A DNA stretch of 64,000 nucleotides, from positions 1,425,501-1,489,500 of the forward strand of contig CALSRS010000001.1 in the NCBI GenBank assembly GCA_943788815.1, read 5' to 3'. The notes beneath the pieces are model-generated. The model did no database searches. It saw only the letters and a list, made by a program, of their open reading frames with translations, and had not been told where the DNA came from. Numbering within the stretch: the first letter of the stretch is position 1; every line of letters begins with the position of its first letter. The position numbers and the translations under genes are program-made. The stretch is from an uncultured Gammaproteobacteria bacterium. GTDB lineage: Bacteria > Pseudomonadota > Gammaproteobacteria > Eutrophobiales > Eutrophobiaceae. Positions 3,153 to 50,499 of the stretch are shown here, one piece after another.

Positions 3153-4283
3153 ATGCTACTAATCAATAATGAAATTGTGGATAAGGTCCTCACCATGGGC
3201 GATACCATAGACGTGTTGGAAGATGCTTATACCCAGCATGTAAAAAGTGAATCAGTCTGCCGACCTCGAATTGATGTTCATATACCGACTGAAGATCCAA
3301 AGAAAGTTTATCGTTGGGGTTCCATGGAAGGTGGCTCCATGCATAATTATTTTGCTATCCGTATCAAGTCAGACATCTTATATGAAACCGAATACCAGGG
3401 AGCTATCACCCAGGAAAAATATTGCCGTGAACCAGGTACCTTTTGTGGTTTTATTATCTTGATGAATGTGAATAACGGTGAACCCCTGGCCATAATTAAT
3501 GACGGCGAGTTGCAACATATGCGCGTCGGGGCAGATGGTGGTCTTGGCGTCAAATATGCGGCACGCAACGATTGTCATACCGTGGGCATGTTGGGTTCCG
3601 GTGGCATGTCCCGTTCTCACATTGCCGCCTACATGCATGTACGTCCAGAAATAAAACGACTACAGGTATTCAGTCCTACCCGAACTAACTGTGAAGCCTA
3701 TGCAGATGAAGTCAGGGATAAATATAAACTTGAAGTGGTCGTTTGCGATAAACCTGAACAAGTTTACAAGGATGCCGATATCATTGCTGCCCTGACAGAC
3801 AGTGCAGTGCCGGTAATCGATCCCCAATTAATTAAGCCGGGCGACCATGTTATAAATATTGGTGGTGGTGGTTATATTGGTGGAGGTGGAACGCCAGGTA
3901 ATACCTTGCTTGATCGAATTAATCTTTACTTACGACTCGGTGACGCCACTGCCCCCTGGGGACGACCAGAGTTCGGTGTGTCTGATGAATTTCTAACCTA
4001 TGCAGCAGAACCCGAATCCATGCATAAGCTCGAACACAAGCACATTGGTAAAAAGGGACACGGCAGGTTACCGGTAGAAAATACGGTGACATTTGAGGAT
4101 ATTGTAACCAAAGGATTATCATCGGCCCGTACCAGTGATGATCAAATCTCCTATTCAGAACGAGGCAATATTCAAGGACAACAATTCTGGTCCGTAGCAG
4201 GTAAGGTTTATGAGAAAGCCATAGAACAGGGACTAGGACAGGAGATTCCTACAGATTGGTTTCTGCAAAACATCAGGAATTGA
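3153..4283 (+). CDS. OCD/mu-crystallin-family NAD(P)-binding protein 1
   Basis: 376-residue cytoplasmic protein of the ornithine cyclodeaminase/mu-crystallin superfamily. Known members are NAD(P)-dependent enzymes acting on amino or imino acids. The Rossmann dinucleotide motif GMLGSGGM sits at about residues 145-152. The preceding NDGELQHMRVGADGG replaces the usual DG..LT..RTAA signature but keeps its arginine (R124), and K72 in AIRIKSDI is the likely substrate-site lysine. Two close relatives lie at 7197 and 21617. All three are longer than typical OCDs (about 320-350) and end with a W/FFLQ(D/N)IR tail. RefSeq names similar long proteins tyramine oxidase subunit B, from memory. Substrate unknown. 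Monocistronic, with the tandem array directly at its stop codon. Confidence 0.85.
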   Translation: MLLINNEIVDKVLTMGDTIDVLEDAYTQHVKSESVCRPRIDVHIPTEDPKKVYRWGSMEGGSMHNYFAIRIKSDILYETEYQGAITQEKYCREPGTFCGFIILMNVNNGEPLAIINDGELQHMRVGADGGLGVKYAARNDCHTVGMLGSGGMSRSHIAAYMHVRPEIKRLQVFSPTRTNCEAYADEVRDKYKLEVVVCDKPEQVYKDADIIAALTDSAVPVIDPQLIKPGDHVINIGGGGYIGGGGTPGNTLLDRINLYLRLGDATAPWGRPEFGVSDEFLTYAAEPESMHKLEHKHIGKKGHGRLPVENTVTFEDIVTKGLSSARTSDDQISYSERGNIQGQQFWSVAGKVYEKAIEQGLGQEIPTDWFLQNIRN

Positions 4284-4717: not shown

Positions 4718-5203
4718 TTAAATAATACCCGGTAACCAGCGTTTTACCTGTTTCATGTATTCCTCATATTCTGAACCAAACATTTCCATCAACCTCGCTT
4801 CGTCTCTTCCGACCCGAGGTTGATACCATATCAAGGTAAATATCAGCAATAATACTGCGACGATAGATTGTAAGGTGATGGCAATTCCGGTGATGTAGAT
4901 AAAGTGACCAAGGTACATGGGGTTACGGGTATAGGAATAAATGCCGGTAGTGACCAGGTTTTCTGGTGGGTTTTTTAGGCCCGGTCCTCCTCTGCCGATT
5001 CTGTTACGGTATTTTCCAGAAAATTTGAATTGCAGGTACCCCCAAAGCATAAACGGAGTACCCCAAAGTACCAATGACAATTCTCCTTTTTGAATTAGCA
5101 GTTCTATTAAAAATATAACGCCCGGGTAGAGAATAAAAGTTCGGTTTGAATTACTACGAAACCATTCTGCGACAGGATTCTTTTTTATAACTTCACCATT
5201 CAT
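4718..5203 (-). CDS. Isoprenylcysteine carboxyl methyltransferase-like membrane protein
   Basis: 161-residue integral membrane protein of the ICMT/phospholipid-methyltransferase superfamily, which methylates small or lipid substrates with S-adenosylmethionine. The family signature is visible: TGIYSYTRNPMYLGH at residues 86-100, and a C-terminal pair of acidic and basic residues around GSEYEEYMKQVKRWLP. Hydrophobic segments lie near 23-37, 43-58 and 98-125. Length fits the family. It lies 15 bases downstream of the EutA-family gene and is probably cotranscribed with it. Substrate unknown; a link to the EutA gene is only contextual. Confidence 0.8.
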   Translation of the reverse strand: MNGEVIKKNPVAEWFRSNSNRTFILYPGVIFLIELLIQKGELSLVLWGTPFMLWGYLQFKFSGKYRNRIGRGGPGLKNPPENLVTTGIYSYTRNPMYLGHFIYITGIAITLQSIVAVLLLIFTLIWYQPRVGRDEARLMEMFGSEYEEYMKQVKRWLPGII

Positions 5204-5218
5204 AATTGAATAACCATA

Positions 5219-6829
5219 TCAGCTGTCTTGCTCGGACTGTAAGCGTTCGAATCGCTTGTTATCACCGGACACGTCCTTAAATACCAGTGACTTAATCATT
5301 ACTGGTACGGTATTGGAAGGTTCACGCAACCTGCCGAGATCAATATAGTCAAAATTCCAGAGTGCTACTCCGTCAATCACTAAAACCGGATTATCGATAT
5401 TGAGATCTTCTTTTAGAATTCGACCAAGATTTAATGCTATATCAGCATCCAGAATGATAAATAGCGGTTTCCCTCGTTTGATTCGTTCTTCCAATCCAGC
5501 TTTTATGCCGTCTGCAAAGGCGCGAATTCGTTTGTAATCTGGATGCCCTTCCCAGTGAAAGGAATGAACAAGGTCGGCATCTGATCCTGTGAGATCAAAA
5601 TTTTGCATTGTTTTTTGAATTTCATTTGCCAACACTTGTTTATCAAATGTTTCCGTAAATTCAAAAGGGGTATGCACAACCTGCAAGTTTCTTCTAGGTA
5701 GTAGTGATTTTGAATCGCTTATATAACCTGTATTGCCGCTAAGCTGAGTAGAATATTCTGATGCTCCCAGTACGGTAGCTCGGATACCCTGACTGTCTTG
5801 ATTTACTTTCCAGGGCAATCTCCCATCTGCAATACATTCACGGACTGCTTCTCCAAGGTACGGTCCAAGATCGCCAAAATCTCTGGGTTCCCTCTCGTAG
5901 ATAAATTCTGAAACACCCCCGGAAAAAACCACGCTATTAATATGTTCGAAACTATTAACAGGATCTGTTAAATATAAATTTTTTGTATTGTCAGACAAGG
6001 TATTGTCAGTAAGCGCATGGACCAGATCATTGGTCATGGATCTGGCAATCGTTGTTAGATCATCACTGGAAACCGAATCACCTAAATTTAGCGTAAGCCC
6101 TGCCCGCTTTGCATGTGACTGACCTGCTGGTTCTATACGCACCACCTCATCCTTGTCATTTACAGCAAGCAATCTACCACCGATATGTAAGGCGGCTGTC
6201 GCCTGAATTAAACCGTTGTCGATAATACTTAACTTGGTAGTTCCACCACCTATATCAATATTCAAGATACGCTCTTTTTCATCATGAGATAACTGCACAG
6301 CACCTGAACCATGAGCCGCCAACATGGCTTCCATGTGATGACCCGCGGCAACACATACCAACTCACCACATTTCTCTGACAGGATCTGGCCTATCCTCTC
6401 TGAATTGGCCCGCCTTAATGCCTCACCTGTCAATATCACGACACCCGTATCGATGTCATCCGGATTTATTCTCGCCTGGTTATATGCCAGGTCCACGATT
6501 TCTCCCAGGGCCTTTGCATCTATCAAAGTTTCACTTTCATAGGGAGTCAGGCTGACGGGAGATTCATACCATGTCTCACGTGACACCACCAGGTAGCGAC
6601 TTGAGAGATCCACAGATTGTCTTTTTAAATGCAGATGTGAAAAGAGGATTTGTGTTCCAGCAGAACCAATATCAATCCCGACACTGGTCAGGGTTACATT
6701 TTCTCTTTGCCACAAGGGATGGTCTTCGATGTTCCCTTCAAAATCGGGGCCAACATAATATCCATCATGGGTATGCCCCGGATCAGGATCATAATAATGA
6801 CTATGTTCTTTTTCAGTATCGTGGGTCAT
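5219..6829 (-). CDS. eutA: EutA-family actin-fold reactivase 1
   Basis: 536 residues matching EutA, the ATP-dependent chaperone that swaps damaged cobalamin in ethanolamine ammonia-lyase. Visible actin/Hsp70-fold motifs are the phosphate-1 loop GIDIGSAGTQ (51-60), LTGEA (133-137), the EutA-type AAGHHMEAMLAAHGSGA (161-177) and phosphate-2 IDIGGGTTK (191-199). The N-terminus carries about 40 extra residues rich in His, Asp and Tyr (EHSHYYDPDPGHTHDGYY), a possible metal-binding tail. No eutB or eutC is present in the window, so the client enzyme is unknown. It is followed by the small methyltransferase and is divergent from OCD-like gene 2 and the TTT genes at 7197-11640. A paralogue lies at 25116-26624, again beside OCD and TTT genes. 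Confidence 0.85.
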   Translation of the reverse strand: MTHDTEKEHSHYYDPDPGHTHDGYYVGPDFEGNIEDHPLWQRENVTLTSVGIDIGSAGTQILFSHLHLKRQSVDLSSRYLVVSRETWYESPVSLTPYESETLIDAKALGEIVDLAYNQARINPDDIDTGVVILTGEALRRANSERIGQILSEKCGELVCVAAGHHMEAMLAAHGSGAVQLSHDEKERILNIDIGGGTTKLSIIDNGLIQATAALHIGGRLLAVNDKDEVVRIEPAGQSHAKRAGLTLNLGDSVSSDDLTTIARSMTNDLVHALTDNTLSDNTKNLYLTDPVNSFEHINSVVFSGGVSEFIYEREPRDFGDLGPYLGEAVRECIADGRLPWKVNQDSQGIRATVLGASEYSTQLSGNTGYISDSKSLLPRRNLQVVHTPFEFTETFDKQVLANEIQKTMQNFDLTGSDADLVHSFHWEGHPDYKRIRAFADGIKAGLEERIKRGKPLFIILDADIALNLGRILKEDLNIDNPVLVIDGVALWNFDYIDLGRLREPSNTVPVMIKSLVFKDVSGDNKRFERLQSEQDS

Positions 6830-7196: not shown

Positions 7197-8333
7197 ATGT
7201 ATATAATTAACAATGACCTGGTTAACCAGGTCCTGACGATGGACATGTGTATAGAAGCACAGGATAAGGCATTTCAAAAAATTCCTACGGGTGGCGCAAT
7301 TCATCGCCCCAGGATAGACATGTACGTCCCCTGTCAACGTGACGATGGCTATTTTCGATGGGGCAGTATGGAAGGGGCGAATGATGGATACTTCGCTATC
7401 CGCATGAAATCCGACATCATGCACTGGCCTAAAGATGAAAATGGAAACTGGACCGAGAAAAAATACTGCCGTGAACCTGGAACCTATTGTGGACTCATCC
7501 TGTTAATTTCCACAGAAAATGCCGAACCTCTGGCGTTCATTAATGATGGCAACCTGCAGCACATGCGTGTTGGTGGTGGTGCTGGTCTTGGGGTCAAATA
7601 CCTTTCCAGAGAAGACAGTCATGTTGTGGGTATGTTGGGTTCTGGCGGTATGGCCAGGACCTTCCTTGAAGCCTTTGCCTGTGTTCGCGACATACAACAA
7701 TGCAGGGTCTATTCCCCTACCGCCGTAAATCGTGAAACCTATGCCGAAGAAATGTCAGACAAACTGGGGATAGATGTGATTGCGGTAAATTCCGCAAAAG
7801 AGGCTGTAGCGGGTTGCGACATCCTGTCATCGTGTACCGACTCCATGCAACCAGTCTATGATGGCGACTGGCTGGAACCGGGCATGCATGTAACCAATCT
7901 CGGGCGACGAGAGATGCCCGACTCAGTCATTAACAAGTTCGATGTGGTCATCCGTCAGGGAACGGCAGGGCTACAAATGAAAATGACTGAAAGGTTTCAG
8001 GCAGAACGCGGACTATCTCCCGCGGCATTTATCGCTGGTTCTGTCGAAGAAATGAAGCGGATTCCTGAGAAAAACCCGCAGCCGGGATTCGGTGGTGATG
8101 ACCCTGATTTTCAAGACAGGGGTAAAGGCAGCGACAAACCAGATTTCGCCGATCTCGTCTCTGGTAAGGCCGAAGGCAGGACCAGTCCTGAGCAAATCAC
8201 CTTTTATCGAAACGTTGGAAACCAGGGACTGCAATTCTCTGCGGTTGGGGCAGTTGTTTATGAAAAAATTAAGGAAATGGGCCTGGGACAGGAAATCCCC
8301 ACAGACTGGTTTTTACAGGATATTCGAGACTAA
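7197..8333 (+). CDS. OCD/mu-crystallin-family NAD(P)-binding protein 2
   Basis: 378 residues, closely related to the genes at 3153 and 21617. The dinucleotide motif GMLGSGGMAR is at 145-154, preceded by NDGNLQHMRVGGGAG (117-131), and RWGSMEG and YFAIRMKSD mark the substrate half. The C-terminal WFLQDIRD is identical to that of copy 3. It is the first gene of a plus-strand unit with tctC, tctA and tctB, 126 bases upstream of tctC. Placement with a carboxylate importer suggests that it acts on the imported compound or its imine (inference). Length exceeds typical ornithine cyclodeaminase by about 30-50 residues, so simple ornithine cyclodeamination is unlikely. Confidence 0.85.
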   Translation: MYIINNDLVNQVLTMDMCIEAQDKAFQKIPTGGAIHRPRIDMYVPCQRDDGYFRWGSMEGANDGYFAIRMKSDIMHWPKDENGNWTEKKYCREPGTYCGLILLISTENAEPLAFINDGNLQHMRVGGGAGLGVKYLSREDSHVVGMLGSGGMARTFLEAFACVRDIQQCRVYSPTAVNRETYAEEMSDKLGIDVIAVNSAKEAVAGCDILSSCTDSMQPVYDGDWLEPGMHVTNLGRREMPDSVINKFDVVIRQGTAGLQMKMTERFQAERGLSPAAFIAGSVEEMKRIPEKNPQPGFGGDDPDFQDRGKGSDKPDFADLVSGKAEGRTSPEQITFYRNVGNQGLQFSAVGAVVYEKIKEMGLGQEIPTDWFLQDIRD

Positions 8334-8459: not shown

Positions 8460-9554
8460 ATGAATAAAAAAATCATCATCTCGTTATCCGTATTTGGAGC
8501 ATTACTGGCTGTCATCATAGTGGCAGGATTGATGGTCAATAAACCCACTCAACAGGGTGCTAACACCGCTGGTGGTTCTGACGCAGTCGTCGATCCCAAT
8601 GCCGCGGCAGCATTTTATGATGGTAAGGTGATTAAATGGGTTATTCCATATAGCCCTGGTGGTGGATATGATGAATATGTCCGTTTGATTGCACCATTTA
8701 TGGAAAAATATACAGGTGCCCGGATAGATGTATTAAACCTGCCTGGTGCAGGGGGGATGCGTGGAGTAAACGAACTGTATGCATCACCAAATAATGGGCT
8801 GACTGTTGGAATCATCAACGGCAGTGCGTTGATTACCAGTCAGCTCGCCGGTATTAAAGGGGCTGATTATGAGCTCGATAAATTTGAATACATTGGTCGT
8901 ATTATTGCGGATCCCCGCGTCCTGGTTCTTTCAAGTAAAAGTAATATTAAAGCATTTGATGATATTTTAAATTCTGAGGAACTGATAAAGATTGGTGCCA
9001 CGGGTCTGGGTGGCAGTACCTACGTTGACGCAGTAGTTGCCAAGGAGGCCTTCAACATGAATGTAGAAATTATCCATGGGTTTGATAGTTCCCCAGTTAT
9101 CAGGCAATCCATGCTACGTGGAAATATTATTGGCACATGGGGTTCATGGGGTAGTGCTGAAGATGGCGTAGAATCGGGTATGGAGTTTATACTTATTCAG
9201 AGTGGCAAAGAACGCCTGGCAGACCTTGCAGATGTACCCACCGTTTTTGAATACATAGATAAAACAGATGACCCGGAACGCACCAGGGCCATTCTTACAG
9301 CCTGGGATGCGTTGATTCAGGTGGGTCGCTCTGTTGCGGCACCTCCAGGTACAGCTGCAGACAAGATTGCATTTTTAAGGGAAGCATTTAACAAGTCCCT
9401 GCATGATCCAGAACTTTTACAAAAGGCGGAACAGGCTGGCAGACCATTTGATTACGCCACTGGTGAAGACATGACAAATATAACAATGAGTGCTACCAAG
9501 ATGCCCGAAGAAATAGAACAATTGTTTATACTGGCAATTCGCGGTCAACTTTAG
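8460..9554 (+). CDS. tctC: TTT system substrate-binding protein (TctC/Bug family)
   Basis: 364-residue periplasmic receptor of a tripartite tricarboxylate transporter. An N-terminal hydrophobic segment (residues 4-27) has no obvious cleavage site or lipobox, so it may be membrane-anchored. Family features are visible: WVIPYSPGGGYDEYVR in the first strand-turn, INVLN/LPGAGG-type loop (LNLPGAGGMRGVNELY), and later RADLADVPTVFEY and AAPPGTAADKI. The ribosome site GGGGAAGG precedes the ATG. It lies upstream of tctA and tctB in the usual CAB order. Such proteins bind carboxylates; the ligand cannot be predicted. Its counterpart in cassette B (22784-23878) is a lipoprotein. Confidence 0.9.
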   Translation: MNKKIIISLSVFGALLAVIIVAGLMVNKPTQQGANTAGGSDAVVDPNAAAAFYDGKVIKWVIPYSPGGGYDEYVRLIAPFMEKYTGARIDVLNLPGAGGMRGVNELYASPNNGLTVGIINGSALITSQLAGIKGADYELDKFEYIGRIIADPRVLVLSSKSNIKAFDDILNSEELIKIGATGLGGSTYVDAVVAKEAFNMNVEIIHGFDSSPVIRQSMLRGNIIGTWGSWGSAEDGVESGMEFILIQSGKERLADLADVPTVFEYIDKTDDPERTRAILTAWDALIQVGRSVAAPPGTAADKIAFLREAFNKSLHDPELLQKAEQAGRPFDYATGEDMTNITMSATKMPEEIEQLFILAIRGQL

Positions 9555-9616
9555 TCCTGGCCTGCATTTGAAATCACGAATTCTTCTATAAAATATAACT
9601 AGGGAAGTCATTAATT

Positions 9617-11131
9617 ATGGGTATTCTCGAAGGACTGGGGATTGGTTTTTTTGCATCAATTAGTCCCTCCGTACTGCCATATTTATTTGTTGGGTCATTA
9701 TTTGGTCTCGTAGTCGGGATAATTCCTGGACTCAGTGGCCATTTCGCAATTGCCATGGCGATACCATTTTTATATACCATGGAACCAGCCACGGGAATTG
9801 CCTTCTTACTGGCAGCCCATGCAGCAGTCGCGCAGGGAGGAGGGTTGACTTCTATACTCTTCAGCACGCCTGGAACCGGTCAGAATGCTGCAACACTGCT
9901 TGATGGCCCTCCCATGAGAAATAACGGCCAGGCAGGGGTTGCCGTTGGGGCTGCAATGATGGCCTGCCTGATGGGTGCAACTTTTGGGTCCGTTACCCTT
10001 GCAGCATTGTTGCCTGCATTACAACAGGTTGTTTTATTGTTTGGTCCTCCTGAAATCTTTGTCCTGGTGATCCTGGCTTTAACATTTGTTGCTGCACTGG
10101 AAGAAGGTGATCTGGTTAAGAGCATCATGTCTGCCCTCGCTGGCCTGTTATTTGCAATGGTAGGTCTGGACAATGTCACGAATCAGGAACGATTTACCTT
10201 CGGCTTACTTGAACTTCGAGACGGCCTGGAACTGGTTCCCGTTATTCTAGGGCTATTTGCTGTAGCCGAAATGTTTGACCTCTGGGTAAAAGGCGGTTCC
10301 CTGGTTGGTGAAGCAAAAAACAGCAGCCTGTCTGCCAAAGAAACCCAGAAACAAATTTTTCAGGGTATATTTGAAACTTTAAAACGCTGGTGGCTGGTCA
10401 TGCGTTGCAGCGCGATTGGAACGGCAATGGGATTGATACCTGGTCTTGGTAGCGCACCAGCAGCATTCGTTGCCTATGGTCATGCCAGACAATCTTCCAA
10501 GACCAAAGAAACCTTTGGTAAGGGAAATATTGAGGGAGTCATAGGCCCGGAATCAGCTAATAATGCGGTGGAAGGTGGAGCCCTGGCATCAACAGTAGCA
10601 TTTGGAATACCTGGCAGTTCATCCATGGCCATCCTGCTGGCTGGGCTTTTCATACTGGGTGTAGAGACCGGTCCAAAGATGCTCACTGAACATGTGGACT
10701 ATGTGTTTATCATGATTTTTACGATAATTTTTGGCAACCTGATCGGGACCGTATTAGGCATGTTTCTGGTGAACCCATTAACACGTGCCTCTGGATTGAG
10801 GTCCAGCCTGCTGGTACCGGTATTAATCTGCATCATATTTACCGGGGCTTATGCTGTAAATCACTCCTGGTTTGATATCGGTATTGCGGCGATTTTCGGA
10901 ATACTTGGTTATCTTATGAAAGAATTGAAATACTCACGAGCTGCTATGTTAATAGGATTTGTGCTCGGATTCGCCATTGAGAAAAACCTCTATCTTGCCG
11001 TGCAACTTTCAGGACCATACTTTATTCTCGACCCAGTGCCTCTAACATTGGCAATAATCACCTTTGGATTCCTGGCTTATAACATCTGGGGCATAATCCG
11101 TGACAAAAAACAAAACAAGCAAAAAGAGTAA
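9617..11131 (+). CDS. tctA: TTT system large permease TctA
   Basis: 504-residue inner-membrane permease with about 12 hydrophobic segments, the usual size for TctA. Family motifs: GIIPGLSGHFAIAMAIPFLY near residues 37-57, TSILFSTPGTGQNAATLLDG near 93-112, and GLIPGLGSAPAAF with GVIGPESANNAVEGGALAS and FGIPGSSSMAILL in the second half, reflecting the internal duplication. It lies 62 bases after tctC and 20 before tctB. It moves the carboxylate delivered by TctC using the ion gradient. Paralogue at 27113-28633. Confidence 0.95.
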   Translation: MGILEGLGIGFFASISPSVLPYLFVGSLFGLVVGIIPGLSGHFAIAMAIPFLYTMEPATGIAFLLAAHAAVAQGGGLTSILFSTPGTGQNAATLLDGPPMRNNGQAGVAVGAAMMACLMGATFGSVTLAALLPALQQVVLLFGPPEIFVLVILALTFVAALEEGDLVKSIMSALAGLLFAMVGLDNVTNQERFTFGLLELRDGLELVPVILGLFAVAEMFDLWVKGGSLVGEAKNSSLSAKETQKQIFQGIFETLKRWWLVMRCSAIGTAMGLIPGLGSAPAAFVAYGHARQSSKTKETFGKGNIEGVIGPESANNAVEGGALASTVAFGIPGSSSMAILLAGLFILGVETGPKMLTEHVDYVFIMIFTIIFGNLIGTVLGMFLVNPLTRASGLRSSLLVPVLICIIFTGAYAVNHSWFDIGIAAIFGILGYLMKELKYSRAAMLIGFVLGFAIEKNLYLAVQLSGPYFILDPVPLTLAIITFGFLAYNIWGIIRDKKQNKQKE

Positions 11132-11151
11132 TCCTCTGGATCCGAAAATCT

Positions 11152-11640
11152 ATGTCTAATAATAAGAAAACTCTCGAAATCTGTTTCACAATTTTTATCA
11201 CACTTATGGTGGTAGCTGCTTTTATTACGGCACTGACATACGACTTCGTATCTGCCAGAGCACCTCTAGTTATCCTGGTGCCGCTATTGATACTCACCGG
11301 TTTCCAGCTTAAAAAAGGATTGAAGGAAGCCCATGGTGTAGATGTAATGGGTGACCTTAAAAAGACTTTAAGTTTTCAGAATAAGGAATTCAACGGAATT
11401 GCCAGCTTTTTTGGCTGGATGATATTTTTACTAATACTGATTTTTGTGACAGGACATTACGTTGGTATGGCAGTATTCATATTTTTCCTGATGAATCTGG
11501 TTGCAGAGGAAAAACTCTCGCTCTCTCTTATTGTTTGCGTTGTCGTGACTCTGGTTATCTATATGCTGTTTGAGCACCTGTTTAATATTGAGCTTTACAG
11601 GGGGTTGATATACAGGATCTGGATGGGTTACGGTTTCTAA
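11152..11640 (+). CDS. tctB: TTT system small membrane subunit TctB
   Basis: 162 residues with four hydrophobic stretches (about 11-27, 34-48, 80-105 and 118-140), the expected topology for TctB, the poorly conserved small subunit of TTT transporters. The identification rests on size, topology and position directly after tctA. No terminator was seen after it, although the next gene is on the opposite strand. Confidence 0.85.
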   Translation: MSNNKKTLEICFTIFITLMVVAAFITALTYDFVSARAPLVILVPLLILTGFQLKKGLKEAHGVDVMGDLKKTLSFQNKEFNGIASFFGWMIFLLILIFVTGHYVGMAVFIFFLMNLVAEEKLSLSLIVCVVVTLVIYMLFEHLFNIELYRGLIYRIWMGYGF

Positions 11641-20617: not shown

Positions 20618-21613
20618 TTATCTGTCTTCACTAGTGCCATGAAGGTAGTTGGACATGTCGGGTTTAATATTATTAACAAACAGTTCCTCGATCTGCATAT
20701 GTCTTTCAGTCAATCCCTGTTCATATAGATAACGAAACAGAGTTTCGAGGGTAGGTCGACTTCCCTCTATCGAGTAATCCCAGAAATCTTCACCCATCAA
20801 TTCGCGGGTGTCTTCAAGTTCATTTACCACCCAGGGCAATGTTGTAGTCAGTGCATCGGTATTATAAATATATCTATAGCTTCTTATTTTTGCCTCGGCA
20901 AATGCCTTGTAAAGACTGATTGCCAACCATGGGCACTTTTCGTACAACGCAGTTTTAATGACCAGGGTATGCATAATAGGAAACACACCCGTTCGCTTGT
21001 AATAGTCGATTTCTACGCGTTTATAATCAGGGAAAAGACGCTTAATATTGCTATTTTTTCTCTTCAGTGTTTCTGGCATCATCACTGATATCAATGCATC
21101 TATCTCTCCATTTTCTAAAAGGACTTCGGGGTTATCACTCCCAAATTTTTCAACAGTTATGCCGGTTGGCAATGTAAATTCCTGCACTGCTGTTCCGGTT
21201 AACCAGTTCATATCCTGGGGCTGGATACCGTATTCATCCTGTAATAATCCACGTACCCAGACTGCGGCTGTCATTTGATAATCGCCTACACCTATCCTTT
21301 TTCCCTTTAGATCGCCTGGAGATCGTATAGCTGATTTTGTGTTTATATATATGCCAGAATGACGAAAGGTACGAGATGGAAAAACAGGAATTGCGATAAA
21401 TCGCTCATCGCACCTGGAGCGAAGCATCGTATAGGAGGATAGAGATAATTCAGAGACATCAAACTCATTATTATTCAACATTCGCCAGAAGGTTTCTCCC
21501 GGCACCATAGGGAGAAAATTCAGGTTCACACCTTCAGGTTTAACAGTACCGTCAAATAAGCCACGAGTACGGTCGTAAAGCCCACAGGCGAGAGTGACAT
21601 CAAGCTTTGACAT
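20618..21613 (-). CDS. 4,5-dihydroxyphthalate decarboxylase-like / NMT1-fold protein
   Basis: 331 residues resembling 4,5-dihydroxyphthalate decarboxylase (Pht5 type) and its periplasmic-binding-protein relatives. The start LDVTLACGLYDRTRGLFDGTV and the following PEGVNLNFLP are typical of that group. Further marks are SELSLSSYTMLRSR, SPGDLKGKRIGVGDYQMTAAVW and the tail NIKPDMSNYLHG. There is no signal peptide, so it acts in the cytoplasm, unlike true ABC binding proteins. It starts three bases after the OCD-like gene's stop (TGA GGG ATG), which is strong coupling. It may decarboxylate a pathway acid. No ABC permease is nearby. Confidence 0.75.
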   Translation of the reverse strand: MSKLDVTLACGLYDRTRGLFDGTVKPEGVNLNFLPMVPGETFWRMLNNNEFDVSELSLSSYTMLRSRCDERFIAIPVFPSRTFRHSGIYINTKSAIRSPGDLKGKRIGVGDYQMTAAVWVRGLLQDEYGIQPQDMNWLTGTAVQEFTLPTGITVEKFGSDNPEVLLENGEIDALISVMMPETLKRKNSNIKRLFPDYKRVEIDYYKRTGVFPIMHTLVIKTALYEKCPWLAISLYKAFAEAKIRSYRYIYNTDALTTTLPWVVNELEDTRELMGEDFWDYSIEGSRPTLETLFRYLYEQGLTERHMQIEELFVNNIKPDMSNYLHGTSEDR

Positions 21614-21616
21614 CCC

Positions 21617-22738
21617 TCAGTCCCGGATATCCTGTAAAAACCATTCAGTAGGTAATTGCTTGCCCAGTTGCCTGGCAAGTGCTGCCTCATAGACCAGGCC
21701 ACTGACAGCGGCAAACTGTAAACCTTGATTCCCTGCATTTATATATGCAGTAATCTGCTCATCATTTGTCCTGCCTGATATCCGCCCATGGGCCAGATCA
21801 TTAAAATCAGGAAAATCCCTTCTAAATAATGTCTGGTGTTGTTCAGCGGGCAAGCGCTGCATTTCCGATTCTGAACCAGCGATATATGCCAGTGGACTAT
21901 TACCGATACCAGACTTTATTCTTGGATCATCATCTCCATTTCCCGCCACGGCACCCGCCACCCCCTGTCTTATGACTATGTCCGCTTTTTCAAATATGTC
22001 CTCAGTTAATTCAAAGGGGCTAAGATTGACGATATGCATACCAGGCATTAACCATTCTTTTTTAACGGTTGGAACCATACTACTGGTACAGGTGGCAAGA
22101 ATATCAACACCATCCACGGCAGCTTCAGGACTATCAACTGCAATGACAGATATACCATGTAGTTTTTTCATCTCCTTGGCATAAAGTTTTCTGTTATCAG
22201 GATTGGGACTATAGACTTTGACCTCCTTGATGTCTCTCACCTTGCAGAATGCATCCAGATAAGTACGCGCCATTCCACCAGAACCAATTATCCCAACCTT
22301 GTCTGCATCCTTTCTGGCCAAATATTTGGCACCCAGACCTGCACCTCCACCTACCCGCATATGCTGTAAATGTCCGTCATTAATAAAAGCAAGAGGCTCC
22401 CCATTACGGGTGGAAAATACCATTATCAAACCACAGTAGGTACCAGGGTTTACACAATATTTATCTTCACGTTCGAGCCCGCTGAGTTCATCACTAGACC
22501 AGGTAATCACATCAGATTTCATACGAATAGCAAAATAGGGGCCAGGCACACTGGTCGCACCTTCCATGGTACCCCACCGCCAGTAGCCATCTTCACGTTC
22601 GCAGGGGACATACATATCTATACGGGGGCGATGAACAGAGCTGCCATCGTCGATTCCAAGAAATGAGGCTTCCTGAACCTTGATACAATCCGCCATATCC
22701 AGCAAGGTCATGACGTCATTATTATTGATCACAAGCAT
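21617..22738 (-). CDS. OCD/mu-crystallin-family NAD(P)-binding protein 3
   Basis: 373 residues, third member of the long OCD-like set. Motifs: HRPRIDMYVPCERED (36-50), YFAIRMKSD, NDGHLQHMRVGGGAG (120-134) and IIGSGGMART (150-159), ending WFLQDIRD. The R in QHMRV and the lysine in RMKSD occupy the substrate positions expected for OCDs. It lies between tctC and the decarboxylase-like gene in the eight-gene operon, so its substrate is probably imported by that TTT system or produced by the cupin or EutA client enzyme (inference). Confidence 0.87.
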   Translation of the reverse strand: MLVINNNDVMTLLDMADCIKVQEASFLGIDDGSSVHRPRIDMYVPCEREDGYWRWGTMEGATSVPGPYFAIRMKSDVITWSSDELSGLEREDKYCVNPGTYCGLIMVFSTRNGEPLAFINDGHLQHMRVGGGAGLGAKYLARKDADKVGIIGSGGMARTYLDAFCKVRDIKEVKVYSPNPDNRKLYAKEMKKLHGISVIAVDSPEAAVDGVDILATCTSSMVPTVKKEWLMPGMHIVNLSPFELTEDIFEKADIVIRQGVAGAVAGNGDDDPRIKSGIGNSPLAYIAGSESEMQRLPAEQHQTLFRRDFPDFNDLAHGRISGRTNDEQITAYINAGNQGLQFAAVSGLVYEAALARQLGKQLPTEWFLQDIRD

Positions 22739-22783: not shown

Positions 22784-23878
22784 CTATCTAATAAATTTTT
22801 CCGTGAGCACATGCTTGACTTCCTGTACGCGCTCATCAGACAGGCCAGCAAAGATATTCCTTACCAACTGTTCCTGATCCTCTGCTGACATATAATTAAT
22901 TGGACGCTTTCTCTGTGTTGCCATGGTGATAAATTCAGGATCTGTGAGTATCTCATGTAATTTACCGCGCAAATAGGTGACTTTTTCAGTAGCTACGTCT
23001 CCATGGGTCACAAATGTTCTTCCTACCTCGGTGACACTAAATCTGAAATCTACCCAGCTTTCACCTTCCTGACTCATATCGGCCAGCTCAAAAATTGTAG
23101 GTACGTCAGGAAAGAACGTCTGTTCCCGGTTGCGGGAAAATGTCGCAACAGGAACCATTCCTTCATCACCACTACCAACATAATTAATAGCGGAACTGTT
23201 TGATACGACGATGCCGTCTACTTCACCTCTTACTACCGCCAGCGCAACCTCACTACTACCGGAATATCCGGTTACCACACCAAATTGTTCCGGCGTCAGT
23301 GCAAGTGCCTCTGCCATGGCAGACTCAGCATCCGAAATATTGTCCGTTAGTCCATTCGCACCCCAGGTTGAGCCATCTTGTTTAATGGTATTCATTACCT
23401 CATCAAAAGAACGCTCGGGATTTGCTTTACTCCAAAGAACCATAGGAGTATCAATTTGCGCGCGACCCAACCAGTTTAATTCCATGATATCGAAGCGAGT
23501 ACCTGGTCTATCCGTAATCTGAGCAAGAACCGCTGATTCACCACCCAGTAACATAATACTCAAGCCATCAGGGCGTCCCTGCACAAGACGGTTCAAAGCC
23601 AATAGTCCGCCGCCGCCAGGCTGGTTTTCTACAACCACGGTTCCACCTGTTCGCTGGGCGAGTTCATTGCCAATCATTCTTGCATATTCATCAAAGCCAC
23701 CGCCTGGATTAAAACCAACAATGATATGCAAGACTTCATTTTTATAAAACGATGCAGGATCTACAGACTGTGTCTCATCATCACCTGAACCACCGCTGCA
23801 TCCGCTTAAGCTGATAACAATACCAAGAAAAACTAATAGTAGCTTACTGGTATTAAATCTATCAAAAAGTAGATTCAT
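22784..23878 (-). CDS. tctC: TTT system substrate-binding lipoprotein (TctC/Bug family)
   Basis: 364 residues. Lipobox LSGC at 24-27 follows a hydrophobic stretch and is followed by SGGSGDD, so the mature protein is probably a lipoprotein. Family motifs: LHIIVGFNPGGGFDEYARM, ENQPGGGGLLALNRL and DVPTIFELADMS. Such receptors bind carboxylates for TctAB. Gene order is unusual, because tctA and tctB lie at the head of the operon while tctC is the fifth gene, after eutA and the cupin. The counterpart in cassette A is anchored differently. Confidence 0.92.
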   Translation of the reverse strand: MNLLFDRFNTSKLLLVFLGIVISLSGCSGGSGDDETQSVDPASFYKNEVLHIIVGFNPGGGFDEYARMIGNELAQRTGGTVVVENQPGGGGLLALNRLVQGRPDGLSIMLLGGESAVLAQITDRPGTRFDIMELNWLGRAQIDTPMVLWSKANPERSFDEVMNTIKQDGSTWGANGLTDNISDAESAMAEALALTPEQFGVVTGYSGSSEVALAVVRGEVDGIVVSNSSAINYVGSGDEGMVPVATFSRNREQTFFPDVPTIFELADMSQEGESWVDFRFSVTEVGRTFVTHGDVATEKVTYLRGKLHEILTDPEFITMATQRKRPINYMSAEDQEQLVRNIFAGLSDERVQEVKHVLTEKFIR

Positions 23879-23918: not shown

Positions 23919-25028
23919 TCAGGCAATATCAAACTTATCCATCTTTGGATCTACATTATTTTTATTCATTTCTTCCAACCAGATTTTGTGAATCCTTGGG
24001 TCCTGATCTTCATATTCCAGTTGATCTCCACCTTCCTTGATACTGGTAGATACTGCTCCTTTTTCGCCAGGCTTCAGACCTATTAACGACCGACGTTTAT
24101 CTTTCGTTAAGGGGTAGCGTAATCCTCCGACACCAGTTGCCAAATATCTTGCTGGGTTCTGGCTGGTATTAAAGTGCTGATGGAACTGTCTGTCTGCCGG
24201 TGGAAAAACTACACCATGCTTCCAGTCTATCCTTAAAAAGTCTTCATCTCCCTCAAACCATAACAGCGAGTAACCATGTCCTGTAACACACATGACGTGA
24301 AAACCGGGGCCATGACGATGTCCCTTCTTATAGGTACCGACAGGCATTTCCGAAATATGTGCGTGCATAGAGCTGTCAGCTAGAACAAACATTACGTTAG
24401 TACCTCCCGCACCTCTATCTCCCCAGGAGTGCAATTCAATACTGGCAAGATCCGGTACGAAATTTGTCTCCCACATATGATTACCGGGTTTAACGGTAAT
24501 CAGATCACCTTCACCAGAAAAATACTTTTCCTTGCCACTTCTTTCTTCAAAGTCAAAATCATTGTCAAAAATAAACGCTTCATTATGAAATGTATTCATC
24601 ACCAGAGGCAGGCCTGTAGTGCTGACTATCAATGCCCTATCCTGGCCACTACCGTTAAAATGACGATGCCTGGTATTTAATGGGACTGCAAATAGACTCC
24701 TGGGCCCCCATTCAAACGTACGCTTTTCACCATTGGGAAGTTCAACCTGAGTGCTACCTCTGCCGTCTAATACATAATAGACATCTTCGTAGAGGTGTTT
24801 CATGGGAGCTGTTGAAGCGCCAGGCCCAATCTCAAACAGAAGCATGTTACTAAAATCACACCTTCCCTTAAGATGAACCGCAGCACCCTTGCAATCATGC
24901 CTGGCCCAGTCCTGCACAGGTACGTTGAAGAGGTCTACACCGTAATCTTCGGTGACTGGCAGGCCTTCTTTTTCCACCCAGTCCAAATATGAATCTATTC
25001 CGTATCGGGGGGCTTCCTGATCACTCAT
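23919..25028 (-). CDS. Two-domain cupin protein A
   Basis: 369-residue cytoplasmic bicupin. The first cupin (about 55-150, with VYYVLDGRGSTQVELPNG) lacks a full metal triad. The second (about 230-320) has KKGHRHGPGFH and, later, FHQHFN, giving several metal ligands. Related to gentisate-dioxygenase-like cupins; some relatives carry the RefSeq label ethanolamine ammonia lyase-activating protein (from memory), which would fit the adjacent eutA-like gene. It sits between eutA and tctC in the operon. Similar proteins lie at 40876 and 44297. It could be a ring-cleaving dioxygenase, an isomerase or an accessory protein; activity is not assignable. Confidence 0.82.
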   Translation of the reverse strand: MSDQEAPRYGIDSYLDWVEKEGLPVTEDYGVDLFNVPVQDWARHDCKGAAVHLKGRCDFSNMLLFEIGPGASTAPMKHLYEDVYYVLDGRGSTQVELPNGEKRTFEWGPRSLFAVPLNTRHRHFNGSGQDRALIVSTTGLPLVMNTFHNEAFIFDNDFDFEERSGKEKYFSGEGDLITVKPGNHMWETNFVPDLASIELHSWGDRGAGGTNVMFVLADSSMHAHISEMPVGTYKKGHRHGPGFHVMCVTGHGYSLLWFEGDEDFLRIDWKHGVVFPPADRQFHQHFNTSQNPARYLATGVGGLRYPLTKDKRRSLIGLKPGEKGAVSTSIKEGGDQLEYEDQDPRIHKIWLEEMNKNNVDPKMDKFDIA

Positions 25029-25115: not shown

Positions 25116-26624
25116 TCATGAAAATAACAGGGATTTTATTACTACCGGCACAACTCCGGGCGGGTCAATTAATTCGCCTACGTCCACATAATCCAGTTCC
25201 TGTAATTGCACCCCATCCACAGATAATAACTTTGCTGGAAAATGATGTTCACGTATCAGGATATTTCCCATAATATTTGCGATATCACCATCTATCATGA
25301 GCAACAATGGCTGAGTTCTGGCGCCATCCTTTAGCACCGCAGTACATATCCCTTTTGCCATGGCATTCAGACGTGAATATTCAGGATCTCCCTGCCAGCT
25401 AAATGCAATGGCAATACAGGTATCGATGGGTTTATCTATTCTATTAATTCCATCACGTATTGCTTTACTAATAATGTTTGCATCAATCGTATTTGACAGG
25501 TCAACATGCAATTGAACTACAGGAATGTTGTGGACTGGTAAAATATCAACATGAGATAAATAGATAGTCTTACCACTTACCTGTACCGTAAATTGAGAAG
25601 CACCAATGACTGTTGCCCGTATCCCCTGCCCGGGATCCATGATTTCAAGGTCAACATTATTTTTAAGTTGATTATTTAAACTGCTAACCAGCAAAGGGGC
25701 AATATCACCAAACTCTTTCATCTCTCCGTGCAGAAGGTATTCAGATACACCTCCGGAAAATGTTAATCCTTGAGGTTCCACATGGCGTTCCAGATCTTCT
25801 GTTAACTGTAATGCCTTGCCTAAATTATCAGTTGCCCCTGATTTAATAAAATCAATGACTACATCTACCAGACGTCCTACTATTTTTTCTCTGATAACTA
25901 CATTATTTAGTGATTCAGGATCTACAGGCAACTCCAGCTCTTTTGCGACAAGATGAGCTGAGTCATCGACCCGGTTCCAGGTACCATTTTCATCTTTTGC
26001 TAATAATCGGCCTCCTACTGCAAAGGCGCAGACACTTAATACTTTCCCCTTATCTATTAATGCCAGCTTGGTTGTGCCTCCTCCAATATCCACATGTAAG
26101 ATGCAAATATTTTTTTCTTTTGAAAGTGCAACTGCTCCAGAACCATGAGCTGCCAGGGTACATTCCAATTTATGTCCTGCTGTCGCGCATACGAACTTAC
26201 CGGCTTCTTCTGCGAAAAGATCAGCTATTGCACGAGCATTTTTTCTCTTTATGGCTTCGCCAGTCAGTATGACTGCACCACTATCAATATCACTTCTGGT
26301 GAAACCCGCTTGCTGATAAGACTTATGAATAAAGTCTTCCAGCATGGTGATATCTATCGTCCCATCTCCAAGGAAGGGGGTAAGCATGATAGGTGAACGA
26401 TGAATAACTTCTCTTCGTGTTACGACAAAACGGCTGGAAAGGGATTGGGTACTTCTTTGCAATCGAATTTTTGCAAATAATAAATGCGAGGTTGAACTGC
26501 CTATATCTATCCCCGCTGTTGTTAATTCCACTGTCTCCTGCCGCCAAATAGAATCAGCAGCGGCCTTAATATCATCTTCATGAATATGTCCATGCAGTAG
26601 ACCGTGACCTTCGTGTAATAACAT
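25116..26624 (-). CDS. eutA: EutA-family actin-fold reactivase 2
   Basis: 502 residues, paralogue of 5219-6829. Phosphate-1 GIDIGSSTSH (38-47), LTGEAIKRKNA, CATAGHKLECTLAAHGSGA and phosphate-2 VDIGGGTTKLAL are all present, as in EutA, which restores cobalamin-dependent ethanolamine ammonia-lyase. The N-terminus is again His-rich (HEGHGLLHGHIHEDD). No cobalamin enzyme is encoded nearby. It lies 23 bases after tctB and 87 before the cupin in the cassette B operon. Conservation of nucleotide-binding residues argues for an active ATPase. The client could be a lyase elsewhere in the genome or an operon product. Confidence 0.86.
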   Translation of the reverse strand: MLLHEGHGLLHGHIHEDDIKAAADSIWRQETVELTTAGIDIGSSTSHLLFAKIRLQRSTQSLSSRFVVTRREVIHRSPIMLTPFLGDGTIDITMLEDFIHKSYQQAGFTRSDIDSGAVILTGEAIKRKNARAIADLFAEEAGKFVCATAGHKLECTLAAHGSGAVALSKEKNICILHVDIGGGTTKLALIDKGKVLSVCAFAVGGRLLAKDENGTWNRVDDSAHLVAKELELPVDPESLNNVVIREKIVGRLVDVVIDFIKSGATDNLGKALQLTEDLERHVEPQGLTFSGGVSEYLLHGEMKEFGDIAPLLVSSLNNQLKNNVDLEIMDPGQGIRATVIGASQFTVQVSGKTIYLSHVDILPVHNIPVVQLHVDLSNTIDANIISKAIRDGINRIDKPIDTCIAIAFSWQGDPEYSRLNAMAKGICTAVLKDGARTQPLLLMIDGDIANIMGNILIREHHFPAKLLSVDGVQLQELDYVDVGELIDPPGVVPVVIKSLLFS

Positions 26625-26647: not shown

Positions 26648-27112
26648 CTAGCGGGTCCAAAGTGGTTCTATAGGCAAAGAGACACCTAGTAGTGTATAAA
26701 AACCTATATAGACAATTATGAACACAACTAAAACTGACAGCATGCGCTGCCACCATGGCAGCCTGTGATAACTAGTATAAGCAAGGGTGAATAACATGAG
26801 ACCCATTAGCAAACCCAGTATGTAACAAACAGGATAAACACTGGCCATCCAAAGCAGACGTTTTACCAGGCTGGATCGTGGATCATCGCTAAAGCCAATT
26901 GATTCCCCCTCTTTTTCAAGTGCCTCCACAGGGCTTATAAATGCCCGGACTAGCAGCCATAAAGTACTAAGCATTAGCAGAACACCTGCCATCCATGGAA
27001 ACAGGATCACATTAGGACGATATTCCCAGACAAACTGCCCCATCAACAATAACACCAAGGGAAAGATGAAAAAGATGATTGCAATGACAATATTTCCTAA
27101 CCTGCCTTTCAT
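26648..27112 (-). CDS. tctB: TTT system small membrane subunit TctB
   Basis: 154 residues with four predicted membrane segments (about 9-28, 35-56, 88-112 and 120-143), the topology of TctB. It starts directly at the stop of tctA (TAA ATG with no gap), which indicates translational coupling. Sequence similarity to the cassette A TctB is low, as is normal for this subunit; the call rests on topology and position. Confidence 0.85.
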   Translation of the reverse strand: MKGRLGNIVIAIIFFIFPLVLLLMGQFVWEYRPNVILFPWMAGVLLMLSTLWLLVRAFISPVEALEKEGESIGFSDDPRSSLVKRLLWMASVYPVCYILGLLMGLMLFTLAYTSYHRLPWWQRMLSVLVVFIIVYIGFYTLLGVSLPIEPLWTR

Positions 27113-28633
27113 TTATGCCTCACCTGAATCTGATATTTGTGAGTCTCGTTTTTTTTTATTTTTAAAATAACGAAAGACAGGCATCAATATGCCAATCAGA
27201 ATTAAAAAAGAAATCACTAGCGAAATAGGTCGCATAAAAAACATAGGACCATAGGTGTTTAATGAAATAAATAGATAACTTTCCAACAATGGCGCAAGGA
27301 CAAAGCCCAGCAATAGTGCCGGCCTTGAATAACCATAATACTTCATGCCTGTTCCAAGGATACCAAATACAAATACGAACAGGACATCGGCAAAATGATT
27401 TTCAGTGGCATAAGCACCAACCACTACCAATGCCACCAATATAGGTGACAGAAAATGTCCGGGGATCAGTGTTATTTTTGCAAGATGCTTTGCAATTAAT
27501 ATGAGTGACAGTGCGCCGATGATGTTTGCTCCTATCAATACAAAAGCAAGACCATAGGCCATATCCATATTTTCGGTGAGAAACTCAGGACCAGGTTGGA
27601 GTCCAAGTAATAAAAATCCGCCCAATAGCAGAACCATAGCACTGCTACCTGGAACACCAAATGCCAATGTTGGTACCAATGCACCACCATCCTTGGCGTT
27701 ATTGGCCCCTTCCGGCCCAATCACACCTTCAATTGATCCCTTGCCAAAACGATGTGGTCGTTTTGAAATTTGTTTGGCCGCACCATAGGTTACAAATGGC
27801 GCTGTCTCACTTCCTACTCCGGGGATCAATCCCAGAAATACTCCCAGGATTGATGAACGTATCAAGACCCATTTTCTCGCAAAGACTGCCCAGACACCTC
27901 GCCATACCTGTTTACTAGTTATCTTAAGATTTGATCCATCAGTTCGACTGCTCGCAATACTTCTGCCAGACATCAACTCTAATAGCTCGGGTATGGCAAA
28001 CATACCCAAAGCCAGCGGGATTAATCTCACACCATCAAGCAGGTAATCAATATCCATCCAAAAACGTGGAACACCAGAGATACTATGATACCCAAAGGTC
28101 CCAAGAAATAATCCCAGGGCACCCGCTGCCAGCCCTTTCAAAGGTGAGCCGCCGCCCAGCAAGGCTAGATAACTCAAACCCAGTAATGCAAGAAAAAAAG
28201 TTTCTGGTGAACCAAACGACATGACTACTGGCCTGACCATAGGTAACAGAAAAATCAAAACGATTCCGCCGATCAAGCCTCCCAGACTGGAGGATGCCAA
28301 TGCTGCGCCCAGGGCATAACCTGCTCGACCTCGTTTTGCCAGTGCATAACCATCGATAATGGTTGCTGAATTACTTACTGATCCTGGGATTCCAAGCAAG
28401 ATAGAGGTAACCGATCCACCGGTTGCCACCACAGCATGACAGCTTAACAAGAATGCAAGGCCAACCACCGGTTCCATGCCATATACCAAAGGTAATAATA
28501 CAGCAAGCGCTACAAGACCTCCCAGACCCGGCAAAATCCCAAAAATCAGTCCTACTGGCACCGCTGCTGCGATGACGATTAAGATTTCAATACGGGCAAA
28601 AATTAAGATACCTTGCCAGAGATCTGACCCCAT
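27113..28633 (-). CDS. tctA: TTT system large permease TctA
   Basis: 506-residue polytopic permease, first gene of the cassette B operon. Motifs: GILPGLGGLVALAVLLPLVY near 32-51, VTSILLGIPGSVSNSATIIDG, LIPGVGSETAPFVTYGAAKQ, GVIGPEGANNAKDGGALVPT and FGVPGSSAMVLLLGG. The GxxPGxGG repeats in each half are diagnostic of TctA. It imports a carboxylate with TctB and the lipoprotein TctC. Divergent from the asparaginase homologue, with a palindrome at 28741-28765 between them. Confidence 0.95.
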   Translation of the reverse strand: MGSDLWQGILIFARIEILIVIAAAVPVGLIFGILPGLGGLVALAVLLPLVYGMEPVVGLAFLLSCHAVVATGGSVTSILLGIPGSVSNSATIIDGYALAKRGRAGYALGAALASSSLGGLIGGIVLIFLLPMVRPVVMSFGSPETFFLALLGLSYLALLGGGSPLKGLAAGALGLFLGTFGYHSISGVPRFWMDIDYLLDGVRLIPLALGMFAIPELLELMSGRSIASSRTDGSNLKITSKQVWRGVWAVFARKWVLIRSSILGVFLGLIPGVGSETAPFVTYGAAKQISKRPHRFGKGSIEGVIGPEGANNAKDGGALVPTLAFGVPGSSAMVLLLGGFLLLGLQPGPEFLTENMDMAYGLAFVLIGANIIGALSLILIAKHLAKITLIPGHFLSPILVALVVVGAYATENHFADVLFVFVFGILGTGMKYYGYSRPALLLGFVLAPLLESYLFISLNTYGPMFFMRPISLVISFLILIGILMPVFRYFKNKKKRDSQISDSGEA

Positions 28634-40875: not shown

Positions 40876-41991
40876 TTAATCAAGTGGAGGCAAGGTTGCC
40901 TTTTCAGCCTCATAGGACTCATCCATTTTGGATTCCAGCCCTTTTTCTGAAAGGGCGTCAGCAAACTTGGTCCTGACTAACTGGCTTTCGTCGGCATAAT
41001 CAATCTGGTGCCCACCGATTCTACGACTAATCCAAGCCTTGGGAACACCCTGTGCATTACGTATAGCCACGCCTTCATATTTGAATGCCAGGTAACGGGC
41101 CGGGGTAGTACCCGTGTTGAAATGCTGATGGAACCACATATTTGGTGGGGTAATCAGGCTGCCTGGTTTCCAGGGATAATACTTAGGTTCTTCACCTTCA
41201 GGCCACATTAATGAATAACCTTCACCTGCAAGTATAATCACGTGTGCACCCGGACCATGGGCATGAGCCTTTTTATATGTACCCACAGGGAACTGGGATA
41301 TATGGGTGTTCATAGAACTCTTGGCCAAGTTAAAGCGAATATGACCACCACCTGCACCGCGTTCCTTGGCTTCTATTAATGGTAGGTTAACTGCATCTGT
41401 GACAAAGTTTGTCAGAAGCATAAGTCCATCAACATCTTCTTTGGGTGCAAAATAATCTGGCTCACCGGAAAATCTACCTTTGAAATCATAGGCTGTCTTA
41501 AAAATAAAATCTGGATCTTCATAGACATTCATTATGGGTGGCAGGTTGGTGACAGCAACAAACCTCACCGTTTCACTTCCTGACCCATTGTAATGTTGAT
41601 GCATAGTATTAAGAGGAATTGAAAATAAGGCTCCGGCCTGCCATTCAAAAGAAACTTTCTGTCCTGCATCATTCCAGACTTCCGTGGAACCGTGGCCACT
41701 AAGGATTAAAATCATTTCTTCATAAAGTTGACGTAGTGGATTGAGTTTTTCACCCGGGGCAATCTCACATACATAACAATCGTTAGATGTGCGCGAGGCA
41801 TCATGATTAAGGAATACGCCGCGGCCATTCCTACTAGCCCAGGGTTTGAGCTCGATTGTGTTTAAATCTTCCTGGTAGATGCCATCCATGATTTCAAGAC
41901 CCTCGGCCTTTACCCATCGGGTGTAAGGTGTCTCTTTTTCCTTAGCGAATTTTCTGGCTGTTTCATCAGAAACAATTGCGTCTTTTGCCAT
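40876..41991 (-). CDS. Two-domain cupin protein B
   Basis: 371 residues, no signal peptide. The first cupin includes EMILILSGHGSTEVW. The second carries KKAHAHGPGAHVIILAGEGYS and WFHQHFNTG, the same metal-ligand pattern as cupins A and C. Overall relatives are gentisate/salicylate-dioxygenase-like bicupins. Monocistronic, immediately downstream in map order of the flavin hydroxylase, which would supply a hydroxylated aromatic if this is a ring-cleaving dioxygenase (inference). An accessory or isomerase role is also possible. Confidence 0.82.
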   Translation of the reverse strand: MAKDAIVSDETARKFAKEKETPYTRWVKAEGLEIMDGIYQEDLNTIELKPWASRNGRGVFLNHDASRTSNDCYVCEIAPGEKLNPLRQLYEEMILILSGHGSTEVWNDAGQKVSFEWQAGALFSIPLNTMHQHYNGSGSETVRFVAVTNLPPIMNVYEDPDFIFKTAYDFKGRFSGEPDYFAPKEDVDGLMLLTNFVTDAVNLPLIEAKERGAGGGHIRFNLAKSSMNTHISQFPVGTYKKAHAHGPGAHVIILAGEGYSLMWPEGEEPKYYPWKPGSLITPPNMWFHQHFNTGTTPARYLAFKYEGVAIRNAQGVPKAWISRRIGGHQIDYADESQLVRTKFADALSEKGLESKMDESYEAEKATLPPLD

Positions 41992-45442: not shown

Positions 45443-45604
45443 TATTTTTTTCTCCGAGAAAAATTCCATAATTCTAGAACGGTACAGTGTAACATCACTT
45501 ATATCGGCCTGTTAACCGAATTTGAAATTGTTCCATATTTCAATAACTGATTGATATTATTATAAATTCTTTCCCTTATTACAAGACAAGTCCGTTCCAC
45601 CTGT

Positions 45605-48452: not shown

Positions 48453-48462
48453 GATTGATAAT

Positions 48463-50495: not shown

Positions 50496-50499
50496 AATA

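Follow-up and report, generated by a model that had tools for sequence, protein, structure and literature searches.

The EutA-like proteins encoded in the window, by which we mean the whole 64,000-nucleotide stretch of DNA analysed here, are best explained as members of a lineage of ASKHA ATPases dedicated to bicupins, into which they would insert a metal or in which they would exchange one. We give this reading a probability of roughly 0.55 as the best explanation overall, with no experiment behind it; as part of the same explanation, the orphan EutA-like proteins would be a sister lineage of such ATPases and not reactivases of ethanolamine ammonia-lyase. EutA itself spends ATP and ejects damaged cobalamin from that lyase, whereupon fresh cofactor binds (PMC5821096), and it is as 'ethanolamine ammonia-lyase reactivating factor EutA' that databases label the present proteins, in genomes without that ethanolamine route. 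That name very likely misdescribes an entire clade, whose members occur in Pseudomonadota, Actinomycetota and Acidobacteriota. The support comes from comparison of sequences, which speaks for a separate clade, a bicupin partnership with matched subfamilies, histidine-rich tails, nickel genes in the neighbourhood and, by prediction, the fold.

Two such genes lie in the window, identified by Pfam profile, tree position and comparison of tails:

5219-6829, minus strand: EutA-like ATPase 1, subfamily A, 536 aa
6686-6829, minus strand: His/Asp-rich N-terminal extension of EutA-like ATPase 1, MTHDTEKEHSHYYDPDPGHTHDG..., absent from classical EutA
25116-26624, minus strand: EutA-like ATPase 2, subfamily C, 502 aa, with the HxH-bearing N-terminus MLLHEGHGLLHGHIHEDD

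The earlier note had described two EutA-family proteins with intact nucleotide motifs, and so they proved: PF06277 covers the first open reading frame at full length (386.7 bits, E 2e-115) and the second likewise (378.4 bits), motifs are kept in both, and EutA-like 1 retains all of GIDIGSAGTQ, NIDIGGGTTK and FSGGVSEF. A whole-genome search added a third full-length copy in the same genomic island, 17 kb upstream of the window (C1:1408229, equal to L005:13154-14653), and pairwise identity among the genome's EutA copies is 36-41%; a fourth, weak match (on C3) was rejected as FtsA. The absence of eutB and eutC from the 64 kb, also claimed in that note, extends to the entire genome (3.23 Mb, completeness 99%), where EutB (PF06751) and EutC (PF05985) had zero matches in searches that were positive for an E. 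coli control. Diol dehydratase gave no match in a search without a positive control. Against NCBIfam EutA equivalog cut-offs of at least 598 bits, the genome's EutA-like proteins reach 325-347. A sequence search of the PDB returned no EutA structure, and remote ASKHA matches only; the predicted model (pLDDT 78) finds its Foldseek counterparts in Ppx/GppA, PilM, MreB, EutJ and dehydratase activators, and thus has an actin/Hsp70-like fold. In the later genome surveys EutA was counted only if E < 1e-30, because the Pfam EutA cut-off admits FtsA-type proteins in most genomes. The PF06277 gathering cut-off was exceeded in 189 of 274 gammaproteobacterial genomes, true EutA being present in only 3, and many of the excess matches were short and lay in FtsA-sized proteins.

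Relatives were drawn from one-per-species genomes as the best 80 of 508 confirmed, with plasmid and genome copies added, and open reading frames in their loci were called by codon-position GC. The queries that gathered the 80 loci were the EutAs of the window itself, and intermediate forms may for that reason be under-sampled. Two trees were built, one of 115 sequences and a more careful one of 44, the latter including 16 EutAs that adjoin eutBC in Enterobacteria, Clostridia, Listeria, Fusobacteria, haloarchaea and others. In the 44-sequence tree all 16 eutBC-linked EutAs and all orphans fall on opposite sides of one branch (bootstrap 98, SH-aLRT 96), and the larger tree gives the same split; the separate clade that phylogeny had been proposed to look for is therefore found, with the genome's copies outside the classical clade and no eutBC locus elsewhere in the genome. 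Orphans divide into three subfamilies (A, n=82; B, n=18; C, n=3), and EutA-like 1 groups with relatives from Marinobacter, Pseudomonas agarici and metagenome-assembled genomes (MAGs). Six alignment columns separate orphan from classical EutAs, and the second phosphate motif reads DIGGGTTK in 30/30 orphans, as against DIGGGTxN in 8/8 classical proteins. In two genomes (G145, loci L091 and L136; G448, locus L158) a very divergent EutA adjoins a divergent EutB, 39% identical to that of E. coli; this EutA forms a very long branch whose exact placement is unsure, and the pairs are possibly another lyase subfamily. A survey within the phylum found EutB in 79 genomes, of which 5 also had EutA; with EutA missing from most EutB genomes, the lyase often works without this reactivase.

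In place of the lyase, the partner of orphan EutAs is very likely a bicupin. The window holds three:

23919-25028, minus strand: bicupin, subfamily C, putative partner of EutA-like 2 by PF07883, bicupin tree and pairing, 87 bp from it on the same strand
40876-41991, minus strand: bicupin, subfamily A, with 80% identity to those that adjoin subfamily-A EutA in Marinobacter algicola and Pseudomonas agarici
44297-45469, minus strand: divergent fourth bicupin of the genome, with no matching EutA

When genes in the best 80 of 508 loci were clustered, a bicupin was the commonest neighbour of EutA-like genes, occurring in 53 of these 80 loci and mostly as the directly adjacent gene, whereas EutB or EutC occurred in none. 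Bicupin trees resolve three subfamilies that mirror EutA A, B and C, and adjacent same-strand pairs are matched in 42 cases out of 42 (A-A 27, B-B 12, C-C 3), without a single mismatch; many of these pairs are related, so the count overstates their independence. The three-way split is older than the phyla sampled, and all three sets are present in the window's genome, where the upstream third EutA pairs with a subfamily-B bicupin (L005:11839-13056). Its 80% identity to bicupins beside sister EutAs is the reason why 40876-41991 is inferred to be the cognate of EutA-like 1, from which it lies 34 kb away. The fourth bicupin adjoins a PQQ-type dehydrogenase gene (42250-44013).

The same association extends to plasmids and to whole genomes. 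Among 72,556 plasmid records an EutA homologue occurs in 25 and the bicupin in 4; these four (Phyllobacterium and three Sinorhizobium) are exactly those with an orphan EutA, and the other 21 EutA plasmids are without bicupin. EutA occurs in 6 of 398 Pseudomonadota genomes, five of which have EutB adjacent and no bicupin that we could find, while the sixth, the window's own, has four bicupins, no EutB, and is the sole bicupin genome of the set. There are exceptions: no bicupin was seen in 27 of the best 80 of 508 loci, most of them with short flanks or partial cupins, and five (L010, L020, L057, L067 and L082) lack one even with some 10 kb of sequence available on either side. One further genome (G011), the only other EutA genome without EutB, carries an orphan EutA fragment at a contig edge, and no bicupin was found in it either; the edge truncates the gene at just the place where one would look for a subfamily-B bicupin. 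We searched the literature for EutA in connection with a cupin, NikR, nickel or a TTT transporter, and it yielded nothing relevant, although that search missed most subscription papers. Overall, comparative genomics supports the putative partnership of EutA-like protein and bicupin well, and we hold it with high confidence. The earlier note, silent on the His-rich tails and on further bicupins in the window, had offered as client either a radical or cobalamin enzyme, which gains no support here (three B12-binding-domain matches in the genome, none of them next to these genes, and no EutB or EutC), or a cupin or an ornithine cyclodeaminase (OCD)-like protein served by a recruited ATPase. Of the latter pair the cupin is strongly upheld by the adjacency of the genes, by their matched subfamilies and by joint occurrence on plasmids; the OCD link holds in the nearest relatives and fails as a general rule, being confined to 4 of the best 80 of 508 loci.

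Orphan EutAs further differ from classical ones at their ends. Classical EutAs begin a few residues ahead of the first phosphate motif and stop just past the last strand. Members of subfamily A carry an N-terminal extension rich in histidine and aspartate, and often also a tail at the C-terminus in which as many as 30 histidines occur (at least 8 in 54/82 members); HxH-bearing tails occur in 80/82 proteins of subfamily A, 3/3 of C (at the N-terminus) and 1/18 of B, against 0/13 classical EutAs. Both ends of EutA-like 1 are predicted to be disordered, and its model falls below pLDDT 50 at residues 1-33. As subfamily B is without His-rich tails, metal storage cannot be needed by all members. In three related betaproteobacterial MAGs (L019:9950-13426, L031 and L062) the EutA-like protein and an ABC permease form one frame, joined by a long His-rich linker; the database titles of L009, L019 and L031 (Klebsiella pneumoniae, Bordetella parapertussis) look wrong, their genes being unlike those species.

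Maturation factors that hydrolyse NTP, and His-rich nickel proteins such as CooJ, are a known requirement of nickel enzymes (PMC6006190), and genes for nickel handling do occur beside some orphan EutAs. Phyllobacterium zundukense has a bicupin gene followed by EutA, a HoxN/NixA nickel/cobalt transporter and NikR; EutA, transporter and NikR stand together again in three Comamonadaceae-type loci, and NikR exceeds its NCBIfam equivalog cut-off in both groups. These are the only two lineages with NikR beside EutA. More broadly, a nickel/cobalt transporter is present in 11 and CobW-family GTPases in 7 of the best 80 of 508 loci, and such transporters can serve cobalt or other enzymes. Taken with the bicupin company and the His-rich tails, these occasional nickel genes suggest that a metal centre, not B12, is probably what is loaded or repaired.

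The bicupin offers a plausible site for such a metal. The AlphaFold2 model of 40876-41991 (pLDDT 89) best matches salicylate 1,2-dioxygenase (Z 21.3) and gentisate 1,2-dioxygenase (Z 20.9), only slightly above other bicupins such as oxalate decarboxylase and seed globulins (Z 19.4); gentisate dioxygenase also ranks first by sequence profile. At family level NCBIfam gave the bicupins of 23919-25028, L005 and P. agarici a weak, partial match far below cut-off. Four histidines of the second cupin (His243, His245, His288 and His290) do not vary among 37 bicupins of all subfamilies, a set that would fit a metal site. Recurrent neighbours are a LigXa-type Rieske oxygenase, a flavin/iron-sulphur reductase, a pht5-like protein, an amidohydrolase, RraA-family and class II aldolases, UbiD, and ABC or TTT (tripartite tricarboxylate-type) importers, a set that suggests import and degradation of an aromatic acid or one like it. 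Further genes of the window are the following:

3153-4283, plus strand: ornithine cyclodeaminase/mu-crystallin family protein (PF02423)
4718-5203, minus strand: ICMT/PEMT-like membrane methyltransferase, 15 bp downstream of EutA-like 1
7197-8333, plus strand: ornithine cyclodeaminase/mu-crystallin family protein (PF02423)
8460-11640, plus strand: TTT transporter TctC, TctA and small TctB-like protein, by neighbour clusters (the small protein by position and length only)
20618-21613, minus strand: substrate-binding/pht5-like protein, a neighbour of EutA-like genes in 28 of the best 80 of 508 loci
21617-22738, minus strand: ornithine cyclodeaminase family protein (PF02423)
22784-23878, minus strand: TctC-type solute receptor (PF03401)
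26648-28633, minus strand: TctB-like and TctA transporter subunits, by neighbour clusters (the small protein by position only)
35195-37102, minus strand: thiamine-diphosphate enzyme, sharing 64% identity with one that adjoins EutA in L011
37582-38325, plus strand: class II aldolase/adducin family protein (PF00596)
38972-40585, minus strand: FAD-dependent enzyme of aromatic-ring hydroxylase type (PF01494, PF21274)
58871-59950, minus strand: HupE/UreJ-type protein of the nickel/cobalt permease family (PF13795), tied to the unit by co-location only

The order of EutA-like gene and ICMT/PEMT-like methyltransferase is repeated in L008, L009 and L010. An amidohydrolase is encoded as two genes that overlap by 4 bp, an arrangement present in two tandem copies (12732-14141/14138-14773 and 17255-18664/18661-19446) and again in L010, its homologue in L005 (9460-11652) being one 730-aa frame; a split gene, translational coupling and frameshifting are the alternatives. 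The island also includes a BatA/BatB-like operon at 45605-51114 (MoxR AAA ATPase, DUF58, von Willebrand A, DUF4381). A connection to the ectoine 'eut' genes was considered and rejected: the OCD-family proteins match ectoine EutC weakly, at 62-103 bits against a cut-off of 472, and the resemblance is a coincidence of gene names.

Under our preferred explanation each EutA-like ATPase would be dedicated to one bicupin metalloenzyme of a catabolic island whose substrate is probably an aromatic acid. By analogy with the EutA cycle, with bare metal in the place of cobalamin, the ATPase would bind the apo or metal-damaged bicupin, ATP binding or hydrolysis would open the site, and a fresh metal ion would enter, the His-rich tails of subfamily A and the weaker ones of C holding metal meanwhile. 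In the window, 5219-6829 (A) would serve bicupin 40876-41991 and 25116-26624 (C) the adjacent 23919-25028; the upstream third copy would serve L005:11839-13056 (B). ATP-driven insertion or exchange, the identity of the metal and ring cleavage as the reaction are each inferred. That EutA-like proteins handle metal at all, a conclusion drawn from sequence and predicted structure, we consider somewhat better than an even bet. Nickel is the leading candidate, tentatively and short of even odds, with cobalt, iron and zinc also possible.

Strict one-to-one pairing of subfamilies and adjacency would suit subunits as well as they suit chaperone and client, and EutA-like protein and bicupin could instead belong to one ATP-dependent catabolic enzyme, either as its subunits or as steps that follow one another, the ASKHA part phosphorylating or activating the substrate (compare acetone carboxylase or hydantoinase-type enzymes), the bicupin finishing the reaction and the tails being incidental. 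ASKHA proteins do include substrate kinases, and Foldseek returns general ASKHA folds (Ppx/GppA, 2-hydroxyglutaryl-CoA dehydratase activator); however, the full-length homology is to EutA, a reactivase, and not to HyuA-type enzymes, and substrate kinases would leave the HxH tails with up to 30 histidines and the nickel genes unexplained. We regard this joint proposal as unlikely, though it is the strongest competitor. The tails could also mark a scavenging or storage buffer for metal, present in catabolic operons by chance and not needed by the bicupin, and they do resemble nickel storage and chaperone tails such as that of CooJ (PMC6006190); yet a mere buffer fits poorly with the retention of every ASKHA nucleotide motif, with subfamily-specific pairing and with tail-less subfamily B still pairing with bicupins, and we find it improbable.

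Less credible again is an ATPase that acts mainly with a neighbouring ABC or TTT transporter, for instance receiving imported metal or gating uptake: an ABC permease often lies directly 3' of EutA and the two are fused in three MAGs, but the transporter type switches while the bicupin is constant. We give least credence to a reading of these proteins as genuine cobalamin reactivases for a B12-dependent enzyme that has escaped recognition, with the Ni/Co transporter supplying cobalt. EutA homology, a transporter family able to carry cobalt and CobW-family GTPases in 7 of the best 80 of 508 loci speak for such a role; on the other hand, no B12-dependent enzyme recurs among the clustered neighbours, NikR is a nickel regulator, and the genome's only three B12-binding-domain matches, inferred from length to be one methionine synthase and two B12-radical-SAM proteins, lie nowhere near the EutA-like genes.

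If dedicated metal service of bicupins is indeed their role, EutA's reactivase principle, known for a corrinoid, would here be applied to a bare metal centre, and certain cupin enzymes that use oxygen would depend on an ATP-driven metal service of their own, something that lies outside the usual picture of cupins. The fuller claim, of an unrecognised ASKHA class that inserts or exchanges metal, probably nickel, in bicupin ring-cleaving dioxygenases, is a possibility we advance cautiously, judging the odds to run slightly against it; it would make these proteins the first nickel-handling NTPases outside the P-loop fold. The system is compact, consisting of two proteins, and points to an uncharacterised catabolic pathway, possibly with nickel-dependent chemistry.

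Among known systems, EutA (PF06277; Mori et al. 2004, as cited in PMC5821096) is closest in full-length homology, ASKHA motifs and use of a single-subunit ATPase, from which the orphans depart in lacking an EutB/EutC partner, in their separate clade, DIGGGTTK motif and His-rich extensions, and in the bicupin beside them. The activator of 2-hydroxyacyl-CoA dehydratase is likewise an ASKHA ATPase dedicated to one partner enzyme, although no iron-sulphur or corrinoid partner was found for the EutA-like proteins. On the client's side, salicylate and gentisate 1,2-dioxygenases share the bicupin fold and are the best structural match (Z about 21), but the window bicupin is only 10-16% identical to them and has its invariant histidine set in the second cupin. 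Finally, HypB, UreG, CooC and CooJ (PMC6006190) offer the parallel of an NTPase or His-rich protein that serves a single metalloenzyme, together with the nickel genes found near EutA-like units in some lineages; in contrast to CooC, which is of the SIMIBI/P-loop type (PMC6006190), the EutA-like proteins have an ASKHA fold, and their putative client is a bicupin.
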